From Vulcanimicrobiota bacterium (lineage in GTDB: Bacteria; Vulcanimicrobiota; Xenobia; Xenobiales; JADMJV01), in NCBI GenBank assembly GCA_019637395.1, contig JAHBVR010000009.1, forward strand, positions 124,001-188,000: a DNA stretch of 64,000 bases, given 5' to 3'. The notes beneath the pieces are model-generated. The model did no database searches. It saw only the letters and a list, made by a program, of their open reading frames with translations, and was not told the DNA's origin. This document shows positions 36,891 through 43,164 of this stretch, one piece after another. Each line of letters begins with the position of its first letter. Within the stretch, counting starts at the first letter, position 1. The translations under genes and the position numbers were made by a program.

Positions 36891-38468
36891 TCAAGGGTGA
36901 GGGGGTGCCAGGCCCATTCCATCCAGAACCTGGCGAGCCTTATCAACTCCCTCGACCCCCTGGGCCTGGGAAGCGATGTAGCCGTCCAGGTCCACCACGA
37001 TTACGCTGGGCAGCAGGTCGTTGGTCAGTCCGTAGCGCTTGGTGACGGAGCCTTCGTCGAAGAGTCGGGCATAAGTCGCCGGCAGGGACATCATTTGGCC
37101 GATGGCCTGATTCTTGTTCTCGGTATCGACATGGATGACCGCGCAGCCAATTTTGGTGCCATAGCGATTGCCCAGGTCGCTCAAAGCGTTCAGCACCTTG
37201 TCGTTATCGGGAGCGCCCACTTTCCAAAAAAGCAGCACTACCGGGCGAGTGTGAAAATGCTGGAAGGAACGCCAATATTTGTTGCTCTGATCGCGCAAGG
37301 CAAAACTACGAGCGGCCCTCTGGTCAGGCACGGCGGCGCTGGCGGCCTCCGTCTCGACGCCTATTGGAGAGGTGGTGGCATAAGCCACCTGGTCAGCGGC
37401 CAGTGTAAATTCAGACAAGCCGGCGGGCTGGCCCTTGGCCGTCACCTTCAGTTTGTGCTTGCCGGCTTTGACGAAAGCTCCCACCGGGGTCACGCCCAGA
37501 TAATCGTTATCGACCCAAACCGATTTGCCGACCTCTCCAGAAACCAGGATGGCCGGTTGCGCTGCATCAGCCAGAGCCAGCCCCACTTCCTTCTTGCTGC
37601 CTTCCTGGTCGCCGGCCTGACGGCGCAGAGCCGCCAACCAGAGGTGCACCGAGGCGTAGTCCGGGCGCAAATCGCGAGCCTTGACCAGGGCCGCCTGGGC
37701 GTTCTCCAGGTCTCCGGTTTTGAGCAGGACCGTCGCTTGATTAAGAAACAGGTCAATGTAGGGGGGATTCCCCTGCCGGGCCTTTTGTAACTGGGCCAGC
37801 GCCTCTTTATTGCGGCCCAACTCGGAAAGCACCAGGGCCAGGTAGTTGCGCACCACCGGTTCTTTGGGGAGCTTGGCCTGAGCCGCCTGCATGGCCGGCA
37901 GAGCCTGCTTGGGGCGCCCACCGGCATAAAGCTTATAAGCTTCGATAAATTTAGCGGTACCGGAAGTCGGGACGCGCTGAGCCACCTGCTCCCAGTCTTT
38001 TAAACCGGCCCTTTCGTTGCCGCGAAAGAACTCCAACTGTCCCTGCGCATAGTGCAGCACGACCGACTGCGGGTGGCTGGGATACTGGCGTTCGGTGGCG
38101 GCCAACAAATTGATGGCCTCGGAGAACTCCAACTCCTGGGTTTGCTGCACGGCGCGCTTGCCCACCGCCAGCATTAGATTGTTCAAGGCCTCGGCGTGGC
38201 GCGGATTGAAGTTCAGGGCCTTCTTGAACTCCAAAATCGCCCGTTCATAGCGCTGGTCCAGATAGCATGCATAGCCCAAAGCCACGTAAGCCTCGGGCTT
38301 TTCTCCATAAAGGTAGACAAGACGCTCGAACTCGCGAACGGCGGTGGCATAGTCCTTTTTTTTGAGGGCCTGATCGCCCTTTTGACGTACTTCCTCGTAG
38401 GAGGGGTCGGCCCAGACCGTGGCCAGGCACGAAAAAAACAGGACGGCGGTAGTGAATCGTTTGAGCAT
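36891..38468 (-). CDS. Exported TPR protein with PEGA-like and thioredoxin-like parts
   Basis: The product has 525 residues. A signal peptide (TAVLFFSCLATVWA) is followed by five or six TPR units (EAYVALGYACYLDQRYERAI and similar, about 30-290). A short PEGA-like beta segment follows (VWVDNDYLGVTPVGAFVKAGKHKL, cited by its core GVTPVGAFVKAGKHKLK), then a thioredoxin-fold domain (VVLLFWKVGAPDNDKVLNAL, YGTKIGCAVIHVD, LPSVIVVDLDG). The CxxC of TlpA is replaced by VGAPD, so it is not a redox protein. The ATG at 38468 has GGGAGGG upstream. It is probably co-transcribed with the gene above it. Confidence 0.82.
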   Translation of the reverse strand: MLKRFTTAVLFFSCLATVWADPSYEEVRQKGDQALKKKDYATAVREFERLVYLYGEKPEAYVALGYACYLDQRYERAILEFKKALNFNPRHAEALNNLMLAVGKRAVQQTQELEFSEAINLLAATERQYPSHPQSVVLHYAQGQLEFFRGNERAGLKDWEQVAQRVPTSGTAKFIEAYKLYAGGRPKQALPAMQAAQAKLPKEPVVRNYLALVLSELGRNKEALAQLQKARQGNPPYIDLFLNQATVLLKTGDLENAQAALVKARDLRPDYASVHLWLAALRRQAGDQEGSKKEVGLALADAAQPAILVSGEVGKSVWVDNDYLGVTPVGAFVKAGKHKLKVTAKGQPAGLSEFTLAADQVAYATTSPIGVETEAASAAVPDQRAARSFALRDQSNKYWRSFQHFHTRPVVLLFWKVGAPDNDKVLNALSDLGNRYGTKIGCAVIHVDTENKNQAIGQMMSLPATYARLFDEGSVTKRYGLTNDLLPSVIVVDLDGYIASQAQGVEGVDKARQVLDGMGLAPPHP

Positions 38469-38479
38469 AGAGCCCTCCC

Positions 38480-39271
38480 TTACATATCGCTGTGTTTCCA
38501 CCAGCTGTAATGCTCGCGTTGCAACACCTCTTGGCTGGGCATCGGATAGAACTTGAGTTCATCGCCGGCCACCACGAAAAAGCCGTTGCAAATTCGCGAA
38601 TAGCTGATGCGGTCGAAAATGGACTGGATGCCGATGCTCTTGGTCCGGGGCTGGTTGTCAGCTTTGAGCGCCTCCAGCACGGTGGCAAGCTTCTGGGGGT
38701 GCACACCGGGAATGGGCGCGGCCAGGAAAGGATTCTGTTTCCAATCGGCCAGGAACTTGTCTACATCGAGATCGATCTGGGTGAAAAATAACTTGGGACA
38801 GCCGCGCGGATTGCCCGGAGTGGTGAGATACTTGCCCAGGGCGGCGTGATCATAACTGCTGGCCACCAGCATTTGCACAGGATTGAGCTCCTGGATGATG
38901 TTGATGCGCGAATTGCTGGGGCTGGGAGAAAACTTCTGAGGCTGAATGCAGAGCACATCTCCGGTCACGGTGGCCGCGTAGAGCGCCCCCAGAGATTCCA
39001 CAGAAAGGTGCTCGAGAACCCGATAGGAGCTGATGAATTTCGTCATCTTGGGGCTACCGTCAGGATGTTCCCTGGTCTGCTCCAAGTATTCATCGATCGG
39101 CAGGTTCTCGTCGCGGAAGTTGATGTCCACTTCGATGAAAATCATCTTGCCCGAGTAGTAGCGGGCCGAACCGACCGAGTAGTAACGTCCGAAGTCGGCG
39201 GGCTCCAGTTGCGAGGCGACCAGCGCAAAATTAGGATACATGATGGCGTAAAGGTGCTTCTGATAACTCAC
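38480..39271 (-). CDS. Hypothetical protein
   Basis: The product has 263 residues and no family I recognise. It is soluble, with no signal peptide. It has a recurring pattern of short strands around MYPNFALVAS and QMLVASSYDHAALGKYL, which may be an internal duplication: residues about 9-75 and 130-200 both start with M(L/Y)xxxxxLVAS and end in a Tyr-Phe-Ile-Asp strand (FIEVDINF, FFTQIDLDV). The gene lies 11 bases upstream of the TPR gene on the same strand, so they are likely one operon. Confidence 0.7.
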   Translation of the reverse strand: MSYQKHLYAIMYPNFALVASQLEPADFGRYYSVGSARYYSGKMIFIEVDINFRDENLPIDEYLEQTREHPDGSPKMTKFISSYRVLEHLSVESLGALYAATVTGDVLCIQPQKFSPSPSNSRINIIQELNPVQMLVASSYDHAALGKYLTTPGNPRGCPKLFFTQIDLDVDKFLADWKQNPFLAAPIPGVHPQKLATVLEALKADNQPRTKSIGIQSIFDRISYSRICNGFFVVAGDELKFYPMPSQEVLQREHYSWWKHSDM

Positions 39272-41979: not shown

Positions 41980-42321
41980 ATGCGCTACCTGATTCTGCTC
42001 TTGCTGGCCCTGCCCGCCTTCGGCCAACCTGCTTTCAAGGGTCAGGAGTTGTACAGTTGGAAGCGAGACGGCCACTGGAACTACGCCCTGCTGGTGGGCA
42101 CCAACCGCAACAAAACCTGGGCCGAGATCGAGCAGGCCGGCCTGGGAGGCCTGGACCAGTTGGAAAAGCGCCTCGACTCGCTGGCCGCTGGCGAGATGAT
42201 CTTCTGGTTTCACCGCTGTGACGGGGGGGCCGGTCAACTGTCCTACCCCCCGGCTGAAATCCAGCAGCGCATCGCCCAGGCCTGCCAGCAACGCAAGCTT
42301 GAACTAGCGAGTCCCCGGTAG
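41980..42321 (+). CDS. Small exported protein
   Basis: The product has 113 residues with a typical signal peptide (YLILLLLALPAFGQ). The mature part is about 98 residues, with no family recognised and one Cys near FHRCDGG and another near QACQQR. It may form an intramolecular disulphide. The 3' end overlaps the converging thioredoxin-like gene by 18 bases. Confidence 0.65.
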   Translation: MRYLILLLLALPAFGQPAFKGQELYSWKRDGHWNYALLVGTNRNKTWAEIEQAGLGGLDQLEKRLDSLAAGEMIFWFHRCDGGAGQLSYPPAEIQQRIAQACQQRKLELASPR

Positions 42322-43164
42322 GTCATCGTCTTTCAATCCCAGCCAGGGGTCATCGATGGGCACGCCCAGCACCTCTTTGAAGAGCGGCAGAGTGCAGCTT
42401 TCCACCGAGGGCGGGCGACTGGACCGGGCCAGCCACTCGTGGGCTTTAGGAATGGCCACTTCACGATAACGGCGGGAATCGGCCGCCACGATGTCGGAGC
42501 CGCTGGCTGCGGGAGGCAGTCCCAGGTTGGCGGCGACCTCGGTCCGGGTCACGGGATAGCGGCTCATATCCAGAGATGGGCTGGCCGGTGAGGATTCGCC
42601 CAAAGCCCTGAGCAAGGGACCCTGCATGATCGCTTTGCTGGCCGTCATCGGCCGGACCACGGCGGCCATCTCGGCTGAACCGTGCCATCGCGACCAGGCC
42701 GCGTCAGTGTCGTTCAAGTGCTGCATGGCCTGGGGCCACTCAGCCAGAAAGTCTTCCGGAGTGTAGATCCCCGGCAAAGCGTGGATGACGCTGCCGTCGG
42801 GACGACATAAATAAATGACGGTGCTGCCCTTGAGGGTGCGTTGCAACTTTTTGCCGTCGCCAAAGTCGATGGTCACCTTGGGGGCGGGCCGCAGATTTTG
42901 CCAGGCCAAACGGCAATCTTGGGTGGCCAGGGCGAAACGGGTGTCAGAGAGCAGCACGGCCCTCAAAGTGCGTGCGTTGGTTCAACACCACTCTTCATCC
43001 AGATCGCCGAGCATCTGCACCAGCAGGATCGGCTTGTCGCCCTGGGCGCGGGCCGCCTCCCAGGGAACCCAGTGCCGTCCAGCCAGTTCGGTCGAAGGCT
43101 GGGGGGAGGCCCAGCAGCCCATGGCCAGCAGCAGGCCGGTCAAAAAAAGCAGCTTTCTCATCAT
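42304..43164 (-). CDS. Thioredoxin-like selenoprotein candidate with Cys-Sec motif
   Basis: The same frame runs through an in-frame TGA at 42982-42984. If it is read as selenocysteine, the product has 286 residues, with Sec at 61: DEEWC-U-TNARTLR. The region after TGA continues the domain (RPAPKVTIDFGDGK, VIHALPGIYTPEDFLAEW) as in thioredoxin-like proteins that I recall with Cys-Cys at this place. The N-terminus is a signal peptide with a Cys at 17, possibly a lipoprotein. A stem-loop sits downstream of TGA. Without readthrough it would be two broken pieces (60 and 220 residues). The gene begins with tandem ATGs after AGAGG. Confidence 0.65.
42947..42964 (-). promoter_or_regulatory. Candidate bacterial SECIS stem-loop
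   Basis: On the minus strand, GAGGGC (42964-42959) and GCTCTC (42952-42947) form a six-pair stem with one G-U, closing a six-base loop CGTGCT. The loop begins 23 bases after the TGA, and a G is among its first two bases. As I recall, bacterial SECIS rules ask for an apical loop 16-37 bases from UGA, with a G at its start. The match was found by eye and is not a folding calculation. Confidence 0.4.

Follow-up and report, generated by a model that had tools for sequence, protein, structure and literature searches.

The minus-strand gene at positions 42304-43164 of the window (the whole 64,000-nt stretch of Vulcanimicrobiota DNA analyzed here) very probably encodes a selenoprotein in which UGA at codon 61 is translated as selenocysteine (Sec), judging from its sequence and those of its relatives. 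Its family appears to be new among the thioredoxin-like selenoproteins of bacteria; the active site is unusual and the sets of paralogues are large. An earlier note on this DNA had proposed a thioredoxin-like selenoprotein at this locus, and every test that could be made, including a check for the Sec machinery, supported that proposal. The features of the gene are as follows:

42304..43164, minus strand: putative selenoprotein gene, 286 codons plus a TAG stop, with the ATG at 43164 or 43161, translated with TGA as Sec
43108..43164, minus strand: N-terminal hydrophobic signal sequence, MMRKLLFLTGLLLAMGCWAS, read by eye
42703..43083, minus strand: predicted thioredoxin-fold domain, residues about 28-154 (AlphaFold2 models, structural matches, and Pfam Thioredoxin_7 in some relatives)
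42985..42987, minus strand: TGT codon for Cys60, adjoining the Sec codon (alignment of window-type proteins)
42982..42984, minus strand: TGA codon for Sec61, in a column conserved as TGA or Cys in homologues
42947..42964, minus strand: bSECIS-type hairpin GAGGGC-CGUGCU-GCUCUC, with a 6-bp stem kept with compensatory changes in relatives
42958-42953, minus strand: hairpin loop of 6 nt, its second base G, beginning 23 nt past the TGA
42307..42702, minus strand: mainly helical C-terminal region, residues 155-286 (alignment A5 and model)
42306-42304, minus strand: TAG stop of the gene

Conservation of the in-frame TGA

A single in-frame TGA interrupts the gene. As the earlier note had described, this codon (42984-42982, minus strand) directly follows a Cys codon, TGT, and precedes TNARTLR (ACC AAC GCA CGC for TNAR), and the frame remains open and coherent for 225 more codons up to the TAG. 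The reading frame and the hairpin alone are not beyond chance because long continuations and bSECIS-like hairpins both arise by chance in this GC-rich window: of 308 frames longer than 60 codons that end in TGA, 11 continue for at least 225 codons, and 5.2% of all TGA triplets precede a bSECIS-like hairpin. Comparison with the sequences of relatives provided the decisive evidence for the selenoprotein reading.

A protein search of 149 genomes of the window's phylum recovered relatives with 67, 44, and 43% identity in genomes G136, G134, and G139, and in all three a single TGA interrupts the frame at this codon. Their Sec-site strings are DEDWCUTNARTLRAVLLSD, DEEFCUTNARTLRAVLLSD, and DEKWCUTNARIVRAVLLFD, respectively, against DEEWCUTNARTLR in the window protein, and homologues can be aligned to the window protein along its whole length. 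We gathered the wider family first with a six-sequence profile and afterwards with a 14-row core profile, which gave 21 strong matches (E 4e-8 or better) in five genomes of the phylum (one each in G000 and G136, four in G139, three in G134, and 12 in G133). All 21 have a single in-frame stop, always at this site, of which 20 are TGA and one is TAA; the matches ranking next below them have no internal stop except for one, and those that were read are CxxC proteins. In the alignment of window-type proteins (A5), column 61 is TGA in seven full-length proteins, the window's included, and Cys in 10.

The core profile was also run on 291 genomes of Armatimonadota (the phylum of L027), where it matched 110 sequences in 67 genomes, 90 of them with exactly one TGA and 20 without. 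Among the 30 of these 110 matches that were listed, the site is TGA in 19 and Cys in 11, and the TGA forms L158, L159, and L161 are of the window's own type. The total comes to about 110 TGA-bearing members in 440 genomes of two little-studied phyla.

Two Cys homologues in Armatimonadetes metagenome-assembled genomes read DEEMPCANARTLR at the site, so that Cys stands opposite Sec, and Pro opposite the Cys before it. A search for tRNA-Sec in these two genomes found none, the best matches being Ser, Leu, and Arg tRNAs. Cys occupies the Sec column in 10 of 10 window-type Cys forms, and the residue before it is Pro or Ala. In a tree of 51 members, which is unrooted and has moderate branch support within the Cys-form part, the 11 Cys forms are nested among Sec forms and require only two changes, suggesting that Cys probably replaced Sec in this family.

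A pseudogene, or a sequencing or assembly error at the TGA of a normal Cys thioredoxin-like gene, might be suspected given that TGA is one base from a Cys codon and the genomes are drafts. However, the same codon is TGA in the roughly 110 homologues from two phyla, a covarying hairpin is specific to the TGA forms (below), and dN/dS between the window gene and its nearest relative, in G136, remains low beyond the TGA (about 0.16 before it and about 0.19 after). We therefore consider this explanation highly improbable, and a read error in particular is very unlikely because the same TGA occurs in independent genomes.

Selection on the downstream protein is also apparent at a single residue. Arg at position +7 from Sec is present in 40 of 40 Sec forms inspected residue by residue (the TAA member included and counted as Sec). 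Its codon falls within the hairpin stem in most members and within the loop in the TU forms, which carry Thr before Sec. Because this Arg is invariant despite the two hairpin registers, the protein after the TGA must itself be selected.

We also considered that UGA might end a 60-residue exported peptide, with the remainder translated from an internal start such as the TTG at 42966, where a 220-codon open reading frame does begin. Such a split would cut through the active-site turn of one thioredoxin domain, yet the Cys forms are one continuous protein, no Cys homologue is split, and the hairpin is confined to TGA forms. Production of two polypeptides is accordingly extremely unlikely, and continuous translation through the UGA is the reading we retain.

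Paralogues are numerous in some genomes. G133 has 12 TGA-bearing copies (e.g. L089, L104, L106, L109, L111, L113, L115, and L124-L128), with three on contig C160 and two on contig C46, which is an unusually large set for one selenoprotein family. Four members (L162, L165, L104, and L109) share a C-terminal region (DWITLS...LLP...RFxPPTEN-like) that is missing from the window protein and looks, from its sequence, like an undescribed domain joined to the selenium domain.

The downstream hairpin and the selenocysteine machinery

Published criteria for bacterial SECIS (bSECIS) elements specify a spacing of 16-37 nt, a stem of 4-16 bp, a loop of 3-9 nt with G in one of its first two positions, and an energy of -7.5 kcal/mol or lower (PMC13188914). 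A candidate stem-loop at 42964-42947, with its loop 23 bases past the TGA and a G near the loop's start, had been pointed out from the letters alone, and we found its position and shape to be as described. With a spacing of 23 nt, a 6-bp stem, and a 6-nt loop with G at position 2, it lies within the published geometry. Its energy is borderline: the apical hairpin alone is at about -6.9 kcal/mol (calculated for the identical G134 copy), slightly weaker than the limit, and the value for the 65-nt stretch beginning at the TGA is -12.8. This stretch is no more stable than its shuffled versions (z +0.99), and a search of Rfam gave no credible match near the hairpin.

The hairpin is present at a fixed place in all 21 members of the window's phylum. 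In most variants the loop begins 23 nt after the TGA and is of the CGUG or AGGUCU type, while in the TU subgroup the distance is 18 nt and the loop has 5 nt; one member (G139d) fits with a shorter, 4-nt loop when read by eye. Alignment of the hairpin from 17 members (15 of them distinct) left 90 of 90 cells paired, with four of the six base pairs changed on both sides. Neither the pairing nor the covariation score was reached by any of 500 shuffles, and sliding the hairpin partner by 1-3 columns abolished pairing. Among Armatimonadota, a hairpin of at least 5 bp lies within range in 19 of 19 Sec forms inspected, and none was found in the 11 Cys forms examined; chance alone, with placement left free, would put such a hairpin after about 5% of TGAs. 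The constraint extends to synonymous positions: over hairpin codons 67-73, window-type Sec forms use identical codons at 19 of 19 matching residues, compared with 169 of 369 elsewhere, while two Cys forms that were compared are identical at three of eight over the same codons. Alignment and covariation show that the conserved downstream hairpin is built like a bacterial SECIS element.

Two sets of relatives deserve mention here. One G134 member (L046/L105, contig C34:2426-2629) has TAA at the Sec codon, with the frame open beyond it and an intact SECIS-like hairpin (GAGAGC-CGGGCU-GCUCUC) downstream; the tRNA-Sec of G134 reads UGA (anticodon UCA). This TAA is probably a G-to-A mutation or an assembly error, although decoding of UAA as Sec is conceivable. 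In G139, two tandem paralogues (L082, contig C139) carry the motif DQSCUGSGRTLRAGLL, and their Sec domain lies close to the C-terminus of a longer protein. The loops of their hairpins are of the AGGUCU type, a loop also present in E. coli fdhF.

If UGA is decoded as Sec, the genome would need selA, selB, selC, and selD elsewhere, as the earlier note had remarked, and all were present. The window genome (7.66 Mb in 36 contigs, 97.9% complete) encodes selD, selA, and selB contiguously on contig C34 (235257-239461), with scores that exceed the curated cut-offs in each case (selA 467 bits, selB 402 bits, and selD 359 bits), and a tRNA-Sec with anticodon UCA scoring above cut-off on contig C2. The same tRNA-Sec (UCA) was confirmed in the genomes of relatives G133, G134, G136, and G139. 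From established knowledge, SelB would bind the hairpin and thereby deliver Sec-tRNA(UCA) to the ribosome.

Readthrough of an in-frame TGA is also what would be expected if the codon had been reassigned genome-wide to a sense codon (Trp or Gly). However, the genetic code is not reassigned because TGA is the ordinary stop of cydA, cydB, and selA, as it is of a TPR gene. Further, each family member has a single TGA, always at the Cys position, and the genome contains a full Sec system. We regard the likelihood of reassignment as practically negligible and Sec insertion as the better account of this codon. A pattern search of the window's own genome for TGA followed by a hairpin gave 32 matches, and no convincing readthrough gene was apparent among the 20 matches listed.

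Fold, active site, and likely chemistry

The N-terminal sequence is typical of export, and the window protein is likely to be exported. The G136 relative has a lipobox-like motif (LTGC) and is possibly a lipoprotein. Two AlphaFold2 models had mean pLDDT values of 74 and 79, mostly 75-97 in the thioredoxin-fold part. Structural matches to the models were nearly all thioredoxin-fold proteins, with modest Z scores of about 6-9 over about 90-120 residues; the top matches, with Z for the two models, were 3f9u (8.8/7.5), 2lst (8.6/7.5), and DsbD-gamma (about 8.1/7.2). On these models, residues about 28-154 of the window protein adopt a thioredoxin fold. The C-terminal region that follows is conserved in window-type proteins and not in other subfamilies.

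A profile alignment to the phylum's CxxC proteins places Sec61 at the nucleophilic first Cys and Ala64 at the second, so that the active site is Sec61-Thr-Asn-Ala64 and the family motif is (C/T)-U-x-x-(A/G)-x3-R. The window protein has neither a classic CxxC nor a classic UxxC site, and Cys at +3 from Sec was found in none of the 40 Sec forms inspected. The earlier note's view of Cys-Sec as a classic thioredoxin redox site did not hold up: the first and second Cys positions of CxxC are occupied here by Sec61 and Ala64, and the residue before Sec varies, being Cys in 21 and Thr in 12 of the 40 inspected Sec forms. Within the window type, all seven Sec forms have Cys before column 61, all 10 Cys forms have Pro or Ala there, and no other Cys column is invariant.

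Sec61 would be situated at the N-terminus of a helix, where thioredoxins place the nucleophilic Cys, with Ala64 replacing the usual resolving Cys. The selenolate would attack a peroxide or disulfide, generating a selenenic acid or a mixed selenosulfide. In CU forms the vicinal Cys60 could then resolve this intermediate; in TU and Cys forms an external thiol would do so. Because no other Cys column is invariant and, in the window type, Cys60 accompanies Sec alone, we infer a one-selenol oxidoreductase with Cys60 as its probable resolver. That the window protein is such an enzyme, acting outside the cytoplasm on a peroxide or disulfide substrate, has in our estimation about an even chance, the chemistry being deduced rather than observed. 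Lineages without Sec would retain the protein with Cys, having lost both the hairpin and the adjacent Cys.

A selenenylsulfide serves as the redox centre of mammalian thioredoxin reductase. Cys60 and Sec61 might likewise form such a centre in the window protein, in which case it would reduce or isomerize disulfides instead of acting as a peroxidase. The distribution of Cys60, found in all of the Sec forms and none of the Cys forms of the window type as if the pair were selenium-dependent, together with the lack of another invariant Cys column, fits this idea; on the other hand, the residue before Sec is Thr, Ala, Val, Leu, or Ser in other subfamilies, so the pair is dispensable family-wide. 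We consider this reading possible but rather doubtful. Also held tentatively, at somewhat less than even odds, is a broader picture of a large and so far unrecognized exported thioredoxin-fold selenoprotein superfamily spanning two phyla, with up to 12 paralogues per genome, in which a vicinal Cys-Sec selenenylsulfide replaced CxxC in the window branch and the partner Cys was lost on reversion. Between the window-type Sec and Cys forms, two neighboring residues and the hairpin change together, a natural experiment that bears on what selenium adds to a thioredoxin-fold site that has no resolving Cys.

Relation to known families and gene neighborhood

Sequence searches of Pfam, NCBIfam, and the PDB with the window protein, and a profile search of the PDB, returned no family, and tblastn against plasmids gave no match. 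The nearest known systems are other thioredoxin-like proteins. The VPGUxxT family (NF041382/NF041383; OS_HP5 in PMC13188914) likewise comprises thioredoxin-like (seleno)proteins with one catalogued Sec, and core matches of relatives to its models were weak, at 14.4 bits (E 0.021), 12.7 bits (E 0.074), and 12.4 bits (E 0.072). These values are far below the curated cut-offs, 350 and 275 bits for NF041382 and NF041383, respectively. For the window protein itself there was no match, and the motif there is VPGU-x-x-T as opposed to (C/T)U-x-x-(A/G)-x3-R here. By sequence, the window family may be distantly homologous to the VPGUxxT proteins. The Trx7/PDZ domain-containing (seleno)protein (NF041199) has, by its name, a Thioredoxin_7-type domain and was weakly matched by one relative (E 0.031); however, its catalogued motif is CxxU (PMC13188914), whereas the window's Sec is at the first Cys position and the window protein has no NCBIfam match. 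Thioredoxin_7 (PF13899) and DsbD C-terminal domain-like proteins share the fold and the position of the nucleophile but have CxxC, where in the window family Sec replaces the first Cys and the second is substituted. The window protein has no Pfam match to PF13899, and relatives match it weakly (three of six sequences in one set, and six of the 14 core rows, these with a best E of 1.7e-5).

Adjacent Cys and Sec also occur in the CU-motif selenoproteins (SaoL, SaoC, HgcA, MbdU, KCU-star, and Csac_0668), but these have other domain models (PMC13188914, Table 1), to which neither the window protein nor the relatives scanned had an NCBIfam match. Among the 119 prokaryotic selenoprotein families in a 2026 catalogue, we found none that combines the window motif and domain, and this catalogue does not mention Armatimonadota (PMC13188914). 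The deep-Sep study reported nine new families, none named as being of this kind and three of them unnamed hypothetical proteins (PMC12013277). We found no description of the window family in the open-access literature, and it may have been listed earlier elsewhere. Because standard gene callers stop at TGA, annotations of the two phyla probably lack whole sets of exported redox proteins or contain them only as halves.

The neighbors of the window gene are a dienelactone hydrolase-like gene, a DUF2807 gene, and cytochrome bd genes, none of which indicates a substrate. A promoter scan identified no sigma-70-type site. A TPR protein encoded at 36891-38501 (minus strand) has a weak C-terminal match to Redoxin and an active-site region without CxxC (LLFWKVGAPDNDKV), which, from its sequence, is possibly a degenerate thioredoxin domain.
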